A stretch of 22,215 nt of DNA. It comes from a virus. The DNA lies in the IMG/VR virus record IMGVR_UViG_3300025425_000183, positions 1 through 22,215 of that record. One strand, given 5' to 3'. A program made the position numbers and the translations under genes. Under the pieces are notes generated by a model. It did no database searches. It saw nothing but the letters and a program-made list of their open reading frames with translations, and was not told the origin of the DNA. Shown piece by piece: positions 8,810 to 19,165 of the stretch; the first letter of the stretch is position 1; each line of letters begins with the position of its first letter.

Positions 8810-8942
8810 AAAGTCAAAGAACGCGGAACATGCACCTCGTGACCAACACAAAAAACGGCCTAGAACTCACAAAAAATGCTTAAATAAGGCAGAAAAAAGG
8901 CAAAAGAAAAATAAAAAATATAAAGGTCAAGGTAGGGGTTGA
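8802..8942 (+). CDS. 46-residue highly basic peptide, GTG start
   Basis: The GTG at 8802 overlaps the previous stop and gives MAKKSKNAEHAPRDQHKKRP, followed by a run of Lys/Arg with one Cys and a GQGRG end. No in-frame ATG exists, so the start is GTG. Like other basic micropeptides it may bind nucleic acid. Its last codons overlap the -35 box of the promoter at 8939. Moderate certainty because low-complexity lysine-rich frames can be open by chance in AT-rich DNA. Confidence 0.55.
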   Translation: MAKKSKNAEHAPRDQHKKRPRTHKKCLNKAEKRQKKNKKYKGQGRG

Positions 8943-10080: not shown

Positions 10081-10254
10081 ATGACTGATATAACTAAATA
10101 CAGGAATGTGTCATTAACCCATGACACTTATAAGAAATTGATAACGTTATCCAAAATATTATTACCGGATGCTAAATTATCAATTAGTAAAACCATAGAA
10201 TCAATTGCAAATGAGAAAGCGAAAAAATTAAATGGCAAATTTAAAAAAGCGTAG
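10081..10254 (+). CDS. Ribbon-helix-helix (Arc/MetJ-type) DNA-binding protein
   Basis: Protein of 57 residues. KYRNVSLTHDTYKKLITLSKI gives the RHH beta strand (YRNVSL, residues 7-12) and helix A; SISKTIESIANEKAKK gives helix B after a turn (PDAKL). This is the size and layout of a small dimeric RHH transcription factor. Such proteins bind palindromes, and the phage has palindromes over several -10 boxes, so it is a candidate regulator of those promoters (inference). It has its own promoter and AAAGGA ribosome site. It overlaps the next gene by 23 nt. Confidence 0.75.
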   Translation: MTDITKYRNVSLTHDTYKKLITLSKILLPDAKLSISKTIESIANEKAKKLNGKFKKA

Positions 10255-11040: not shown

Positions 11041-11224
11041 ATTTTATATTAATTATTTTTCAAAGTCTGATGGGAAAAAAATAAAACGACCTTACGATCC
11101 CCATTCAGAAAAACAACATGAGTTTATTGCAAGAAGTGGTAATCTTTGTAAACGGTACTGGGACACTAGTAAGGAAGGTTTGAGGACCGCTAACGCACCT
11201 TGGACGATTATGGTAAAGAAATGA
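11012..11224 (+). CDS. 70-residue protein, paralog of the protein at 19169
   Basis: Sequence features: KFYINYFSKSDGKKIKRPY, then YWDTSKEGLRTANAPWTIMV. The 61-residue protein at 19169 has TFYITYYANKHKKHITR and YYDLDNNGYRTATVNWKV, i.e. the same FYI.Y, basic segment, Y(W/Y)D, G.RTA and W. endings. The two are diverged copies. The fold is probably a small beta sheet. No known function. The end shares ATGA with the next gene. Confidence 0.7.
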   Translation: MATGKETKTKFYINYFSKSDGKKIKRPYDPHSEKQHEFIARSGNLCKRYWDTSKEGLRTANAPWTIMVKK

Positions 11225-11400
11225 CAAAAAAAGAAAAATACGACGGCAGAAGTAGACCTTCTAATAAAGCTTATGATGAGAGTTGGCATAGAATTTTTGG
11301 ATCAAACCCTGTAGCATTGGAGGTTAGGACTCCTAAGTTTAAATCTCAAGTGGTTGTATCTAAGAAAATATATAACAGAAAAAGAAATGATAACGGATAA
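11221..11400 (+). CDS. 59-residue basic unknown protein
   Basis: ATG 11221 is chosen because it shares ATGA with the previous stop; an upstream ATG at 11200 lies deep in that gene. The product begins MTKKEKYDGRSRPSNKAYDESW and ends with a lysine/arginine-rich tail. No known domain. Its stop is overlapped by the following coiled-coil ORF. Confidence 0.6.
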   Translation: MTKKEKYDGRSRPSNKAYDESWHRIFGSNPVALEVRTPKFKSQVVVSKKIYNRKRNDNG

Positions 11401-13903: not shown

Positions 13904-14310
13904 AAAATAAGGCAGATTACTGCGACACCCAAGGTGTCGCAAGGTGTCGCATAAATGCGTTTTATGCGGGTTTTGCTATCGCAGGGTGTCGCGAGATTTC
14001 TGTTTTTCTGTGTCATTGTGTCGCATGTCTGTATACTTATGTCGCAGGTAAAGCCCATATAGAGAAAAAACTGCGATAGCTACCTTGAAAAAAATGGCGT
14101 TAAATGAACAACTGCGACACCTGCGATACCACTGCGACACCCCAGGTGTCGCATGTTTTTGGTCAAATGGACAGCGGTTACCAACACTTCTAGGAGATAG
14201 GTCAACATTATTTACTTCTTGCGACACCTCCCAGGATTTTTTAGCGCAAATAAATAAAAAAAATAAAAATATGCTCTTTAGGTGTCGCAGCACCAAAGCT
14301 GCCTTATTTT
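13904..14310. repeat. 407-bp element with 12-bp inverted ends and GCGACACC array
   Basis: AAAATAAGGCAG (13904-13915) and CTGCCTTATTTT (14299-14310) are perfect inverted ends. Between them lie nine exact GCGACACC/GGTGTCGC sites, at 13922, 13933, 13943, 13985, 14114, 14134, 14145, 14221 and 14281, plus degenerate ones near 14017 and 14123, in both orientations. AATTGTGTT (13873) and AACACAATT (14312) form an outer inverted pair. Frames across it translate the repeats and do not look coding. It could be a replication origin with iterons, an operator array, or a non-autonomous mobile element. Confidence 0.75.
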
Positions 14311-14375: not shown

Positions 14376-14696
14376 ATGCCTAAAAGAAAAAACAAATCTA
14401 GAAATTTAAACACCTATTCTAAACCTAAATTGATTAAACAAGAGGTTACATTCCCCTATTCAAGATATAAAATAGATTGGTGTGACATCGTCACTGAAGG
14501 CGGTTGGGGATCTGAAAAAGAATTTAATAACATGAAATTAGCAACTCCAGTAAGTGAAGGTTATCTTTTTAGTAAGGATAAACACACTGTAAAAATTTTT
14601 GCGGGTTATGATATTGATGATGATGGTACTATTACTTTTTCTGAACGATCGGTGTTTCCGACTTCGTGTGTTCTGAAGATGACGAAACTTCATTAA
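14376..14696 (+). CDS. 106-residue unknown phage protein
   Basis: ATG 14376 is preceded by AGAGG (14367-14371, short spacing). The upstream in-frame extension to 14319 is hydrophobic and lies next to the repeat element, so I exclude it. The N-terminus is basic (MPKRKNKSRNLNTYSKPKL); the rest (YKIDWCDIVTEGGWGSEKEF, then SEGYLFSKDKHTVKIFAGYD) looks like a small beta-rich domain of a type seen in phages, without known activity. The 3' end overlaps the convergent small terminase gene by 65 bp. Confidence 0.72.
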   Translation: MPKRKNKSRNLNTYSKPKLIKQEVTFPYSRYKIDWCDIVTEGGWGSEKEFNNMKLATPVSEGYLFSKDKHTVKIFAGYDIDDDGTITFSERSVFPTSCVLKMTKLH

Positions 14697-15177
14697 CTTC
14701 TTCTTCTAATGCATCAACAGTCTTCATATTTAACATCGGAGCGTAGTCTTCTAAAATCTTTTTCATCTTTAATTCTATTTCTTCCTCTGACATATCTTCT
14801 ATTTTTCCATGTTTTATTATTTTTCTGTCTATGTATAGTCCTGCTGCCTTGCCTCGAGATACTTCAGCGTTTACAGCAGAAGAGAAACTCCCTTTCTTCA
14901 AAGCCGCTGTCTTAATTCTGTCTAGTTCAGCTAAATGTTTATCGTACGTAACTTCATGTTTAGCTAATCTCTCTTGTTTAAGTGAATCTACATATTGAAC
15001 TACTAATGGAGATAGTCTAGGATTTAATAACTCTGATCCTTCTACCTTGCACCGCTTATGACTGTACCCAGCTAACTTAGCTGCTTCTGATTGAGATACA
15101 GGACCTTCTTCATCACCGAATACTATAAACTCGGCAAATCTCTTTTGCATTTCTGTTAATCTTTTTGGTACTCCCAT
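14632..15177 (-). CDS. terS: Terminase small subunit
   Basis: Protein of 181 residues. The N-terminal part has the helix-turn-helix of small terminases: LTEMQKRFAEFIV, SQSEAAKLAGYS and GSELLNP, followed by helical oligomerisation segments and an acidic, low-complexity tail. It recognises phage DNA and hands it to the large subunit (at 20733). It is leftward and 5.5 kb away from its partner, instead of adjacent. The ATG lies 6 nt after a TAAATT -10 box with no ribosome site, so translation may be leaderless. Its transcript is convergent with the gene at 14376. Confidence 0.82.
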   Translation of the reverse strand: MGVPKRLTEMQKRFAEFIVFGDEEGPVSQSEAAKLAGYSHKRCKVEGSELLNPRLSPLVVQYVDSLKQERLAKHEVTYDKHLAELDRIKTAALKKGSFSSAVNAEVSRGKAAGLYIDRKIIKHGKIEDMSEEEIELKMKKILEDYAPMLNMKTVDALEEEVNEVSSSSEHTKSETPIVQKK

Positions 15178-15213
15178 GTTGACAATTTAGGGTAACTATC
15201 CTATAAAGTCAAT
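15178..15213. promoter_or_regulatory. Fully overlapping divergent promoter pair
   Basis: Rightward: TTGACA (15179-15184), 17 bp, TATAAA (15202-15207), 6 nt, ATG 15214. Leftward: TTGACT (complement of 15207-15212), 17 bp, TAAATT (complement of 15184-15189), 6 nt, ATG at 15177. Each promoter's -35 overlaps or touches the other's -10, so polymerase can use only one direction at a time. TATCCTATA of the shared operator family is present at 15198-15206. Confidence 0.78.
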
Positions 15214-15513
15214 ATGAAAGATGAAGACAAAACATTTGAAAATGAAAGGAAACACGTGAGTGAACCAGTAGAAGATAGAGGAGCGTCTGATTTAACCTTC
15301 CTTATTGAAGAACATCAAAGACAAATTTGGGAATATAAACAGAAAGAATCTGAATGGATTAAGACTGATAATATACTTAAAGGTTCTAAAAAAATTATAG
15401 ATGAGTTAAGCACTAAGTTGGTTGGTCTAGCCAGACGTATTCAAGAGTTAGAATATGACAATGCTACTTACAGAAAAGAAATTGATAAACTACTTGCAGA
15501 AAAATCTAAATGA
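15214..15513 (+). CDS. 99-residue coiled-coil protein
   Basis: Opens at ATG 15214, exactly at the predicted transcript start. An in-frame GTG at 15256 with AAAGGA just upstream offers a conventional start (85 residues). Residues about 30-99 are coiled coil (FLIEEHQRQIWEYKQKESEW, LVGLARRIQELEYDNATYRK). First gene of the rightward operon opposite the small terminase. No enzyme motif; probably a scaffold or regulator. Stop shares ATGA with the next gene. Confidence 0.75.
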   Translation: MKDEDKTFENERKHVSEPVEDRGASDLTFLIEEHQRQIWEYKQKESEWIKTDNILKGSKKIIDELSTKLVGLARRIQELEYDNATYRKEIDKLLAEKSK

Positions 15514-15773
15514 GAGTAAGAGACCTTCAAGAATTCTTATCTAAATTTACTGAGTCTAAAAAAGATGGAAGTCGTCAAGGCAACGCTATGAGTGATGCTG
15601 TGATTATGGTAGAGATCAATGGATTCCTAGAAGAAATTAAAAAAATGGAAGTACACGAAAACAATCAAACAATAATTGGGTTAACTAAAAACCATCAATC
15701 TCACCGTCTAGTTTTAAAAACTAAGAGCGATAGAAAGATAATTATTCCAGATAAATTACGTGATACACTGTAG
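15510..15773 (+). CDS. 87-residue unknown protein
   Basis: ATG 15510 sits in ATGA of the previous stop. Features: RDLQEFLSKF helix, SDAVIMVEINGFLEEIKKME, and a beta-rich end (QTIIGLTKNHQSHRLVLKTK, IIIPDKLRD). Cytoplasmic, no known family. Operon position before a nuclease gene suggests a DNA-related role, without direct evidence. Confidence 0.72.
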   Translation: MRVRDLQEFLSKFTESKKDGSRQGNAMSDAVIMVEINGFLEEIKKMEVHENNQTIIGLTKNHQSHRLVLKTKSDRKIIIPDKLRDTL

Positions 15774-15805: not shown

Positions 15806-16189
15806 ATGGGCCCAGAGGCTAAATTATACCAAAAAGTTAAGCGTCATTTTAAGGATTTTTCACTTCTCAGACTTGAAAACATTAGCTTACTTGGTACTCC
15901 TGATCTATTGGTCTACAATAATAATCGCCACTTCTTCACTATTGAATTAAAAGTAACCAAGAGTAAAAAAGTTCGTTTCTCACCACATCAAATTGCGTTC
16001 CATTTAAGGCATCCTGACAATACATTTATCCTTATAGAGGCCCTTGGTCCGTGGTCCTCGAATACTTTTCCTATATCCATGTACCATGGTTCCCGGATCA
16101 GGGAGCTTGTAGCTTCCGGCTTGAAGCTTGACGCTTGTTACTCTGGTTGGGATGCTTGCCGCTTGAAACTTTCGGAGCTTGGTGCTTGA
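15806..16189 (+). CDS. VRR-NUC-like PD-(D/E)XK nuclease
   Basis: Protein of 127 residues. PEAKLYQKVKRHF helix, then GTPDLLVY (GTPD at 30-33), FFTIELKV (E47, K49) and FSPHQIAFH (S59, Q62): the G-x-P-D ... E-x-K ... Q signature of VRR-NUC and small Holliday-junction-type nucleases. It should cut branched or structured phage DNA. The last ~30 residues (from about residue 100) are encoded by the GCTTGNN heptad repeats, giving a tail of Leu/Ala/Ser/Cys repeats that the family normally lacks. No clear ribosome site. Confidence 0.8.
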   Translation: MGPEAKLYQKVKRHFKDFSLLRLENISLLGTPDLLVYNNNRHFFTIELKVTKSKKVRFSPHQIAFHLRHPDNTFILIEALGPWSSNTFPISMYHGSRIRELVASGLKLDACYSGWDACRLKLSELGA

Positions 16190-16239
16190 TGCTTGGCGCT
16201 TGAAGCTTGATGCTTGGCGCTTGCAGCTTGAAGCTTCCT
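16105..16239. repeat. Tandem GCTTGNN heptad repeat, cluster 1
   Basis: Units of 7 bp, consensus GCTTGNN, run in register from 16105 to 16174 (10 units, some degenerate), skip 2 nt, and continue from 16177 to 16239 (9 units: GGT, GAT, GGC, GAA, GAT, GGC, GCA, GAA ending after GCTT). GAT-GGC-GAA forms a partial higher-order order. The first units are inside the nuclease gene. Open frames on the opposite strand (KLQAPSI-type) are translation of the repeat. Confidence 0.85.
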
Positions 16240-16302
16240 AAATATAGGCGCGTGGGATTTTCTAATTGGTTCGGGAGCCTTGGGCCGCGGATCATGGCGC
16301 CT

Positions 16303-16323
16303 GCACCAGCCGGTGCCGTTTTT
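16303..16323 (+). terminator. Rho-independent terminator after the nuclease operon
   Basis: GCACC (16303-16307), loop AGCC, GGTGC (16312-16316), CG and then T5 (16319-16323). It would end the rightward transcript that begins at 15214. Stem is short but GC-rich. Confidence 0.5.
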
Positions 16324-16334
16324 AAAAAAATCCA

Positions 16335-16493
16335 TTAGTGCTTGACGCTTGAAGCTTTTATTTTTGTTATACCTAACGCGCGCAGCTGTGAGCTGGACAA
16401 CGTGCGGCCTTTATTAATATTCAAAAATGATTCAGGGCGCATTAAATGACCGTCCCTGGATCTATACATAAAAGTGTACTTTGTTTTTTTCAT
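16335..16493 (-). CDS. 52-residue basic protein, end encoded by repeats
   Basis: Starts at ATG 16493 just after the stop of the Gp88-like gene (TAATATG), so it is co-transcribed. MKKTKYTFMYRSRDGHLMRP, then GRTLSSSQLRALGITKI; the last residues (KASSVKH) are encoded by heptad units 16340-16360. No known domain. The upstream 8 codons of the longer frame overlap the previous gene and are not needed. Confidence 0.6.
   Translation of the reverse strand: MKKTKYTFMYRSRDGHLMRPESFLNINKGRTLSSSQLRALGITKIKASSVKH
16340..16360. repeat. GCTTGNN heptad repeat, cluster 2
   Basis: Three units in register: GCTTGAC, GCTTGAA, GCTTTTA. It forms the 3' end of the leftward 52-residue gene, as cluster 1 forms the 3' end of the nuclease gene. 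Confidence 0.7.
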
Positions 16494-17113: not shown

Positions 17114-17161
17114 CTCCTGTATATTTTATTTATTAGTACTATTTAATTGTGTTCGAATTAA
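17114..17161 (-). promoter_or_regulatory. Leftward promoter-leader, copy A
   Basis: On the minus strand: TTAATT (17161-17156), 17 bp, TACTAA (17138-17133), then the leader with ATACAGGAG (ending 17114) before ATG 17103. The -35 is weak, but the same arrangement recurs at 17607-17656, and AATTGTGTTC plus AAGGCTTG are conserved in both, supporting function. Confidence 0.45.
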
Positions 17162-17162
17162 G

Positions 17163-17232
17163 GCTTGCCGCTTGACGCTTGGAGCTTGCCGCTTGGTCCT
17201 TGGGCCCTGGTCCATGGAGCTTGAGACTTTTA
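17163..17232. repeat. GCTTGNN heptad repeat, cluster 3
   Basis: Ten 7-bp units in perfect register: GCTTGCC, GCTTGAC, GCTTGGA, GCTTGCC, GCTTGGT, then degenerate CCTTGGG, CCCTGGT, CCATGGA, then GCTTGAG, ACTTTTA. It begins directly after the leftward promoter A. Confidence 0.8.
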
Positions 17233-17491: not shown

Positions 17492-17600
17492 CTTTGTCCT
17501 CCATGTATTTTCTTGATTTTTCTTGGTCCTCTTTAACAAGACGCAGGATCTCTTCTATTGCATCCGCTATTCTAATTAACGCTTTTGTACTTTCTGACAT
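17475..17600 (-). CDS. 41-residue acidic helical protein
   Basis: ATG 17600, preceded by CCAATACAGGAG on the minus strand (ribosome site at the complement of 17607-17611), the same leader as several rightward genes. Product MSESTKALIRIADAIEEILR, then LVKEDQEKSRKYMEDKDES: one amphipathic helix. It overlaps the next leftward gene by 17 nt. Function unknown. Confidence 0.65.
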   Translation of the reverse strand: MSESTKALIRIADAIEEILRLVKEDQEKSRKYMEDKDESTS

Positions 17601-17606
17601 TTTATT

Positions 17607-17656
17607 CTCCTGTATTGGTTAACTTATACTGTACTACTTAATTGTGTTCTTATTAA
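17607..17656 (-). promoter_or_regulatory. Leftward promoter-leader, copy B
   Basis: On the minus strand: TTAATA (17656-17651), 17 bp, TACAGT (17633-17628), then CCAATACAGGAG before ATG 17600. Near copy of the unit at 17114-17161. CTTAAT and ATTAAG around TGTGTTCTT (17637-17657) form a small dyad. Confidence 0.45.
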
Positions 17657-17657
17657 G

Positions 17658-17692
17658 GCTTGGTGCTTGAAGCTTGCCGCTTGAAACTTTCA
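17658..17692. repeat. GCTTGNN heptad repeat, cluster 4
   Basis: Five units in register: GCTTGGT, GCTTGAA, GCTTGCC, GCTTGAA, ACTTTCA. The pair GCTTGAA-ACTTTC also occurs in cluster 1 (16161-16173). Placed directly after promoter copy B, as cluster 3 is after copy A. Confidence 0.75.
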
Positions 17693-17713
17693 ACTTCAGG
17701 TTGAATTTTTTTT
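17689..17713 (+). terminator. Possible rightward terminator
   Basis: TTCAAC (17689-17694), loop TTCAG, GTTGAA (17700-17705), then eight Ts. It could stop rightward read-through (antisense to the leftward cassettes). CAGGTTGAATTT is repeated at 17721-17732 and CAACCT lies between, so alternative pairings exist. Confidence 0.45.
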
Positions 17714-17866
17714 ACAACCTCAGGTTGAATTTGCTAATTAGAATCATTCTAAAGTGATCAGTCACTAGCTACGTAGGGTCCGGGACTGATTTATTACCGG
17801 TTTTACGAGAGGCCACCCCGAAAGTCGCAACCTATGTTCTAGTGTTTATTCTCACAGTCATAGTAA

Positions 17867-17952
17867 CTGATCCCAGATCCCTTGAGTGCTGGCCAGTAGC
17901 AACGATCGTTTCCGCATAAGCTACACCACTCGGTCAAGAGATCAGGGATCAG
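17867..17952 (+). ncRNA. Long imperfect stem-loop, possible structured RNA
   Basis: CTGATCCC (17867-17874) pairs with GGGATCAG (17945-17952), then GATC (17876-17879) with GATC (17940-17943), then CTTGA (17881-17885) with TCAAG (17934-17938): 17 pairs in 19 positions. Inside, GTAGC (17896-17900) pairs with GCTAC (17920-17924), and AACGATCGTT (17901-17910) is a palindrome. No ORF uses this region. It fits a structured RNA or a cruciform; strand is unknown and given as + by default. I recognise no Rfam family. Confidence 0.5.
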
Positions 17953-17982
17953 TAGCACGACCACAAAGTACGTGCTACTGAT
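17948..17982. other. Perfect 12-bp hairpin overlapping the long stem
   Basis: ATCAGTAGCACG (17948-17959) and CGTGCTACTGAT (17971-17982) are perfect complements with an 11-nt loop. Its first five bases also belong to GGGATCAG of the 17867-17952 stem, so the two structures compete for the same strand. Confidence 0.7.
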
Positions 17983-17985
17983 AAA

Positions 17986-18057
17986 ATTAGTAATAGGGAT
18001 TAATGCACAACAAACTTGTGTGTAATCAATTACTTGATTACTTTACCTATTACTAAT
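17986..18057. other. 12-bp stem enclosing smaller hairpins
   Basis: ATTAGTAATAGG (17986-17997) and CCTATTACTAAT (18046-18057) form a perfect 12-bp stem. Inside, GTAATCAA (18022-18029) pairs with TTGATTAC (18034-18041), and GATTA (17998-18002) can pair with TAATC (18023-18027) plus GCACA with TGTGT. It lies just upstream of the 18076 promoter; a cruciform operator, origin structure or RNA is possible. Confidence 0.65.
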
Positions 18058-18075
18058 CTATCTCCTATATAATGC

Positions 18076-18104
18076 TTGACAAAGTATTAGTCAAGGGCTA
18101 AATT
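18076..18104 (+). promoter_or_regulatory. Promoter for the 323-residue protein gene
   Basis: TTGACA (18076-18081), a 17-bp spacer and TAAATT (18099-18104). TCTCCTATATAAT just upstream (18061-18073) contains a second -10-like box. The leader carries AAAGGA before ATG 18139. Confidence 0.6.
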
Positions 18105-18138
18105 GATTTTAATTAAAATAAATATAACCAAAGGAAAC

Positions 18139-19107
18139 ATGACACAGAAAATAAGAATGAACACCGAACTACGAAACAAACTGTTTAATAAAATTAAACA
18201 CGTTTTTGAAAATGAAAGCACACAAGAGAGAGAGGACTATCTACAAGCAAGAGAAAATGTTGATGTTCAATATAAGTCAGCATTTGGATTAGCTTCTCAA
18301 ATAGTTGAACGTGCTTATCCAAGTGATGATGTTGCAACATTAAGACATTATAAAAAGAAATATGGTGAAGCTGTTGATGTTGTAGCCAAAGATAAATGTT
18401 TTTACTTTGCACACAATGAAGCTGTTGATGAAGATAATGACACAGTTGAAACTAAATCACACTTTGACTTTGGTTTGTTTGGTAATCTAAATGGTAATGA
18501 ACACTCAAGCGACGAGGGTAGAAAGTTTGCCTATGCTTATTTAAGAGAGGACTTGAGAGCATTGGACTTAAATCCAGATATACTAGCACAGCAAGATAAA
18601 AACCAAGACAATCCACACAAGACAAAACATATTGACCTGAATGATAAAGCATTAGGGAGAACAGGAAGATATAATGATAGGGATAATAATGGTTTAACGA
18701 AATCATTTGACGACCAATTTTATCTTGATGTTATTGGAACATCTTATTGTAGGTCAAGAGCAATAGCTTGTACTCAAGATGAATACAAACAACTTGAAGC
18801 ATGGAGAATTGCCAAAGGTCAAGTTGTATCAACTCATCAAACATGGGTGGATAGTATAACTAAACAATGCGACCAATTAAAAATTGGATTGAAAGCATAT
18901 AGATACTTGAGTGAAGCAATAGAACTTGCAACTGAACTAGGTATTGAAATTGAGGAAGCTGAATTGATTAGAACTAACTCAACAGGCTTAACAATCTACA
19001 ACCCTAAAAATCTTGCTGATATGATTAAAGGTCTAAAGAATAATAAACCTTTAACCCTAGCCCAGAAGATAGAAGCACGAAAAAAATATGAAGCAAGTGT
19101 AAATTAA
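18139..19107 (+). CDS. Unknown 323-residue phage protein
   Basis: ATG 18139 with AAGGA at 18131-18135; a longer frame to 18103 uses a non-ATG start inside the -10 box and is rejected. N-terminus (KIRMNTELRNKLFNKIKHVFE) is basic and helical. The middle is acidic and Asn/Asp-rich (HFDFGLFGNLNGNEHSS, DNPHKTKHIDLNDKALGRTG). The C-terminal ~110 residues are helical (TQDEYKQLEAWRIAKGQ, KAYRYLSEAIELATELGIE, LADMIKGL). I cannot assign a family with confidence; families associated with nucleotide modification would be worth testing. Minus-strand frames here are shadows. Confidence 0.85.
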   Translation: MTQKIRMNTELRNKLFNKIKHVFENESTQEREDYLQARENVDVQYKSAFGLASQIVERAYPSDDVATLRHYKKKYGEAVDVVAKDKCFYFAHNEAVDEDNDTVETKSHFDFGLFGNLNGNEHSSDEGRKFAYAYLREDLRALDLNPDILAQQDKNQDNPHKTKHIDLNDKALGRTGRYNDRDNNGLTKSFDDQFYLDVIGTSYCRSRAIACTQDEYKQLEAWRIAKGQVVSTHQTWVDSITKQCDQLKIGLKAYRYLSEAIELATELGIEIEEAELIRTNSTGLTIYNPKNLADMIKGLKNNKPLTLAQKIEARKKYEASVN

Positions 19108-19110
19108 CAT

Positions 19111-19165
19111 TTGACATGGGCTATCCTATAATATAGGATAGTCCTATAACCAATACAGGAGAAAT
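19111..19165 (+). promoter_or_regulatory. Promoter-operator-leader module 1
   Basis: TTGACA (19111-19116), 17 bp, TAGGAT (19134-19139). The spacer and -10 form a dyad with 10-bp arms CTATCCTATA (19121-19130) and TATAGGATAG (19132-19141), and TATAGGA pairs again with TCCTATA (19142-19148). ACCAATACAGGAGA follows as ribosome-site leader for ATG 19169. Confidence 0.8.

Follow-up and report, generated by a model that had tools for sequence, protein, structure and literature searches.

A conserved 34-bp module of predicted, interleaved divergent promoters at the small terminase gene in a group of phages

In the window, by which we mean the whole 22,215-base virus record that was analysed, a 34-bp stretch at 15179..15212 (both strands) reads as a pair of overlapping divergent promoters, fully interleaved and tied to the small terminase gene terS. 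We consider it probable that this stretch is a conserved two-way promoter at which the directions compete for host polymerase, with starts at or near the two flanking ATGs and a factor acting on a TTACC element in the spacer; as such it would be a variant of a known arrangement. Read from the sequence, the rightward promoter consists of a -35 box TTGACA (15179..15184, plus strand), a 17-nt spacer and a -10 box TATAAA (15202..15207), followed after 6 nt by the ATG at 15214. The leftward promoter, for which the box scan and the relatives agree with the direct reading, consists of TTGACT (15207..15212, minus strand), again a 17-nt spacer, and TAAATT (15184..15189), a -10 box with only a 4/6 match, followed after 6 nt by the ATG at 15177. 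The sequence-only reading of this DNA had described two overlapping box sets with these spacers, gaps and start codons, and its description is exact to the base. In the 34-mer 12 of 17 pairs are symmetric, which makes it an imperfect palindrome (p about 0.0003 in base shuffles), and both box sets, in opposite orientations, lie inside one polymerase footprint. No description of a terS-linked interleaved promoter module was found in the accessible portions of the open-access literature on pelagiphages, leaderless genes and divergent promoters, and a word search of the available text of PMC9599517 and PMC2704228 returned nothing on promoters.

The leftward ATG opens terS (14632..15177, minus strand), whose identity as a small terminase subunit, proposed earlier from the letters alone, is confirmed by matches to Terminase_2 (5e-8; 34.1 bits against a curated cut-off of 26.1) and phrog_51 (1e-13). 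The best match of its product is the TerS of Pelagibacter phage HTVC027P, with 49% identity over 82% of the protein. The ATG of terS provides the predicted first message base, as does that of the first rightward gene (15214..15513, plus strand), which encodes a charged, possibly coiled-coil protein of 99 aa for which no family was found and which is under coding constraint in the relatives. A second gene of 87 aa follows (15510..15773, plus strand), and a similar-looking gene sits at the module in loci of the MFVKHLQEYL type. The third gene (15806..16189, plus strand) likely encodes a PD-(D/E)XK nuclease, judging from the motif series GTPD...ELKV...SPHQ, from invariant residues and from weak profile matches (phrog_2165, named DNA helicase, 1.5e-9; the Holliday-junction resolvase phrog_5702, 0.0025; Hjc, 0.0044 in one of seven relatives; the nuclease PDB 4qbn, E 0.49); its structure model, with a mean pLDDT of 41, was of too low a quality to be of help. 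A PD-(D/E)XK-like pattern is present in the protein ending the rightward operon in 118 of the 123 module loci that extend for 1200 nt or more on that side, a count which, like those of the MFVKHLQEYL type, of Shine–Dalgarno sequences, of codons 2 and 3 and of promoter words, takes in, of the pattern-fetched loci L086–L200, those numbered L086–L163. The claim of a rightward nuclease operon is supported by this recurrent pattern, with a nuclease assignment that rests on weak matches. As a general pairing, 'packaging versus nuclease' fails, because beyond gp31, the divergent gene of HTVC027P, come genes of the opposite strand instead of the nuclease.

Conservation was assessed in the 80 best out of at least 600 terS relatives from viral contigs. 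Of these 80 loci, 78 have the module at terS with both of its box sets, in 35 distinct versions, the two others being a locus cut inside the module (L009) and one with no upstream sequence (L014); in L013 the module is displaced by about 55 nt. The consensus used for finding it was drawn from the same terS-fetched sequences, with up to five mismatches allowed, and related sequences are not independent counts. Across the 35 distinct versions the kept columns are TTGAC at the rightward -35 end (35/35), the TATA of the rightward -10 box (at most one exception per column, i.e. at least 34/35), TTACC, the TAAA of the leftward -10 box (35/35) and GTCAA; these figures are quoted from the terS-fetched set only, as in pattern-fetched loci the conservation is enforced by the pattern. 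The sequence-only reading had named the retention of just one box set by related phages as evidence that would count against it; the clade of the window keeps both, which supports that reading. Identity is 0.867 in the module, as against 0.584 for the third codon positions of terS and 0.513 for the opening 51 nt of the divergent gene (computed on the 68 of 78 terS-fetched loci in which terS itself adjoins the module, 63 distinct), and this points to strong selection on the stretch. Viral contigs searched with the pattern only gave at least 120 matches and 115 new loci, all 115 with terS within 3 kb downstream, so that terS lies downstream in every one of the 193 module loci among the matches listed; several pattern loci duplicate contigs already fetched through terS, and merging identical 94-nt contexts reduces the 193 loci to 157. 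Phage records gave no match to the whole stretch in a DNA search. A host assignment from genome-contig matches was rejected, the matches being two MAG scaffolds labelled Rhodobacteraceae and SAR86 that are probably binned phage contigs.

The position of the start codons is kept through exchange of the genes themselves. Of the 157 distinct contexts, a count that includes all 115 pattern loci, 149 have the next terS-side ATG 1–2 nt from the module edge, and 153 have the next ATG of the other side 1–5 nt from the opposite edge. A non-terS ATG adjoins the module on the terS side in 13 of the 157, mostly at 1–2 nt. A 36-codon gene stands between module and terS in L021, L036, L042, L068, L069, L072 and L074, and a 146-codon gene in L056 and L077, each with its ATG 1–2 nt from the module. 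On the divergent side the first gene varies as well (proteins beginning MKD, MKV, MFV, MTD, MER and others), with its ATG still at the edge. If the module is a promoter with a fixed start, an ATG that stays at the edge through gene replacement is just what would be needed. In L027 (3169–3880) the module is duplicated around a gene of 203 aa, the second copy standing away from terS.

A more distant version is found in the cultured phage HTVC027P, where the layout is CAT-3-TTGATT...ATCAA-2-ATG; both 17-nt spacers are as in the window, and the core is different. Among 80 relatives of the HTVC027P TerS, 42 loci fit this layout strictly, 21 loosely and 17 do not, and the ATG-to-ATG distance is constant in all 26 distinct strict copies. 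These copies keep TATA and an AGTT.T core, neither required by the search pattern, and in the HTVC027P relatives the position of TTACC is taken by a different conserved word, AAGTTGTA. In most of the 21 loose loci the terS-side TTGA has changed to TTGC or TTGT. The genes at the terS-side edge include terS, arfA-like and other small genes, and in HTVC027P itself this edge gene is gp30 (ArfA), between the module and terS. No RNA polymerase gene is present in HTVC027P, which reportedly depends on the polymerase of its host, and gp30 RNA has highs at 3 h and once more at 12–15 h, according to the published account (PMC12753301). Since HTVC027P on HTCC1062 is already in culture and RNA-seq has already been made, the module could be tested there. 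An ORF at 11221–11400 of the window resembles HTVC027P ArfA gp30 by eye.

Leaderless initiation is likely in both directions. There is no Shine–Dalgarno sequence at 15177 or 15214, AGGAG or a similar motif preceding many other starts, and the divergent gene is constrained as coding sequence from its edge ATG onwards: in the MKDKRTY group (25 sequences, 289 pairs) codons 2–17 have a dN of 0.076 and a dS of 0.658 (dN/dS about 0.12), and codons 2 and 3 (AAA, then GAT or GAC) are present in 30 of 30, leaving no later start before the conserved stretch. For these two reasons both messages are probably leaderless. The gap from -10 box to ATG is 6–7 nt on the terS side and 6–10 nt on the other in nearly all loci. 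Outside the module, layouts of a TTGAC box, a -10 box and an ATG have their gap peak at 6 nt (46 of 139 distinct layouts from 196 sources, all 115 pattern loci included; three in all in the reversed control), from which leaderless starts would be predicted to be a common style in these phages; smaller peaks at 12 nt (20/139) and 14 nt (17/139) imply that some such promoters are not leaderless. Within the frame opened at 15214, a later GTG at 15256 behind the Shine–Dalgarno sequence AAAGGAAA could serve as a start too. The form seen at 15179 recurs at 8939 and 13581 (TTGACA-17-TATATA-6-ATG with TATCCTATA), each with a later in-frame start that has a better Shine–Dalgarno sequence.

Two elements in the spacer may bind factors, one of them found throughout the phage group and the other special to the module. 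The first is the word TATCCTATA (15197..15205, plus strand), which occurs exactly five times in the window, counting both strands, and is common to other promoters of the group. Words of the TATCCTA type are strongly tied to TTGACA (of 811 stretches, 108 contain ATCCTAT and 118 its complement), and ATCCTAT, TCCTATA, TATCCTA and CCTATAT, which overlap one another, lead 210 permutations. The second is TTACC (15191..15195, minus strand), a candidate operator found in 35 of 35 distinct modules and explained by neither box set. TATCCTATA had been put forward as a shared operator half-site, and its link with promoters across these phages is in keeping with that proposal; the operator reading was nevertheless demoted, because the TATCC part is variable inside the module (columns 12–17, identity 0.616) and TTACC is the invariant element (columns 18–23, TTACCY, GGTAA/TTACC, identity 0.975). 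A ribbon-helix-helix regulator guessed by eye at 10081–10254 gained no support from family searches.

How would such a stretch work? We infer that the main sigma factor and RNA polymerase of the host would use the leftward boxes to make the terS message and that the same polymerase on the rightward boxes would make the message for the small proteins and the nuclease, with starts about 6–7 nt past each -10 box, at or within a few nucleotides of the A of each ATG, and with leaderless or nearly leaderless messages translated without a Shine–Dalgarno sequence. Since each -10 box touches the -35 box of the other promoter, one polymerase would cover both, and the directions would compete at each initiation event and so set the ratio of the products; a factor on the invariant TTACC would probably shift this balance during infection. 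An either/or switch had been proposed, and the geometry does imply a single polymerase at a time. What the geometry does not yield is a stable state, for a polymerase that has started frees the site again, and without a regulator the layout gives a ratio. If this reading holds, a group of phages of abundant marine bacteria would possess a very compact, conserved two-way promoter.

The simplest alternative, a chance pairing within AT-rich DNA, draws on the frequency of loosely scored overlapping opposite pairs, of which the window has 105 against a mean of 87.6 in 60 shuffles, and on the ordinariness of single boxes in such DNA (13 promoter-like sites observed between 13 and 18 kb versus 14.6 expected in a simple scan, which listed the leftward promoter only, because its second hexamer has to end in T). 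Loose pairs with both ATGs arose 13 times in total across the 60 shuffles; a pair with both promoters at 9/12 or better and both ATGs 5–7 nt away appeared in 7 of 500 dinucleotide shuffles, and the observed summed score of 20 with both ATGs was reached by none of the 500. Taken by itself, the pair is unusual yet not decisive; the conservation is, by our comparison of sequences, decisive, and it already refutes chance, which we regard as practically negligible. It could also be that the module is chiefly a packaging start (cos or pac) bound by TerS, its promoter likeness arising through compactness. Sites for pac or cos lie in or beside terS in other phages, and terS is always downstream of the module in the loci listed above. 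Against this, wherever genes have been inserted before terS the module has kept its place beside the ATG of whichever gene now comes first, rather than beside terS, the second copy in L027 is away from terS, and the HTVC027P relatives change the spacer core and keep the boxes and the ATG spacing; we hold this explanation to be very improbable.

Somewhat less remote, but still unlikely, is that one direction alone is a promoter and the mirror boxes are half-sites for a dimeric regulator. The imperfect palindrome, the weak terS-side -10 box and the decay of the terS-side -35 box in part of the HTVC027P group would fit, but the ATGs have stayed 1–5 nt from each edge although genes on either side have been replaced, and in 78 of 78 loci the module promoter ranks first, or shares first place, over 250 nt in each direction, with no better one to replace it. 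A temporal switch, in which a phage regulator on the spacer (on TTACC, often on TATCC) flips the direction during infection, is a more serious though still tentative possibility, and an extension of the preferred explanation rather than its opposite. It is favoured by the near invariance of spacer columns 18–23, needed by no box, by the HTVC027P relatives conserving a spacer word of their own at the same place, and by the early and late highs of gp30 RNA, which suggest regulation, the dip and return being unexpected from constant competition (PMC12753301, in passages that single out neither gp31 nor terS); on the other side, no regulator was identified, and family searches found no DNA-binding family for the small protein at 10081–10254. 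The fullest form of this idea, a regulated packaging toggle in which a TTACC-reading factor, possibly TerS, shuts one direction and opens the other, seems doubtful to us; were it true, terminase supply would be linked to a nuclease-bearing operon through two leaderless messages from a single site. Competition between the two directions, adjustable by a factor on TTACC, remains the explanation that we prefer.

The window has other features of note. A second divergent pair, arranged back to back, lies at 18066–18104 (plus strand, TTGACA at 18076, 17 nt, TAAATT; minus strand, TTGACT at 18094, 17 nt, TATATA), and TTGAC-N7..11-GTCAA with -10-like boxes on both sides was found in 59 distinct contexts among the sequences compared. 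Next to this pair, 17740–18066 (minus strand) is a candidate structured non-coding RNA with a fold z-score of -5.1. Rfam gave no match in the window, nor at 17600–18150 at E values up to 0.5. The GGATCTGGGATCAGTCATT...TTGACTGTGAG core of the candidate recurs in about two dozen loci, HTVC027P included, and GGATCTGGGATCAG alone precedes different sequence in other loci. At 19111, 19831 and 20112, TTGACA-17-TAGGAT comes before the word AGTCCTA, with the palindrome TAGGATAGTCCTA, and a leader of the form ACAGGAG. Dense inverted and direct repeats (GCGACACC/GGTGTCGC), partly terminator-like, fill 13919–14300, and GCTTG-rich repeats in locally GC-rich DNA occur at 16094–16357, 17157–17201 and 17652–17697 (a 24-nt unit, 10 copies at 69% or more). 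Near-identical blocks at 17130–17164 and 17625–17659 (AATTGTGTTC...TTAAGGC) stand upstream of two minus-strand genes with a ATACAGGAG-like leader.

Overlapping divergent promoters are familiar from tetR/tetA, where they are combined with defined operators, and symmetric -10 bidirectional promoters start in two directions from one site through a single shared -10 box. The module differs from both in that each -10 box touches the -35 box of the other promoter. Further parallels come from published accounts. In the EcoRV and CfrBI systems the divergent CR and M genes have overlapping core promoters from which polymerase cannot start both ways at once, and their expression is coupled (PMC5333194); these are restriction-modification systems governed by a C regulator, the C transcript of EcoRV is not leaderless, and there is no relation to packaging. 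The divergent Pc and Pr promoters of pLS20 coincide, and polymerase itself acts as a switch, but they are very unequal in strength, involve the regulator RcoLS20 and DNA looping, and Pc lies at an unusually large distance and so is not leaderless (PMC4207663). The cI and cro genes of phage PY54 are likewise divergent and both messages start at AUG, but they encode lysis/lysogeny repressors served by a 16-bp Cro operator, not by two box sets in 34 bp (PMC4488713). It is from such accounts of overlapping promoters (PMC5333194, PMC4207663), together with the geometry of the module, that mutual exclusion at each initiation event would be expected at terS.
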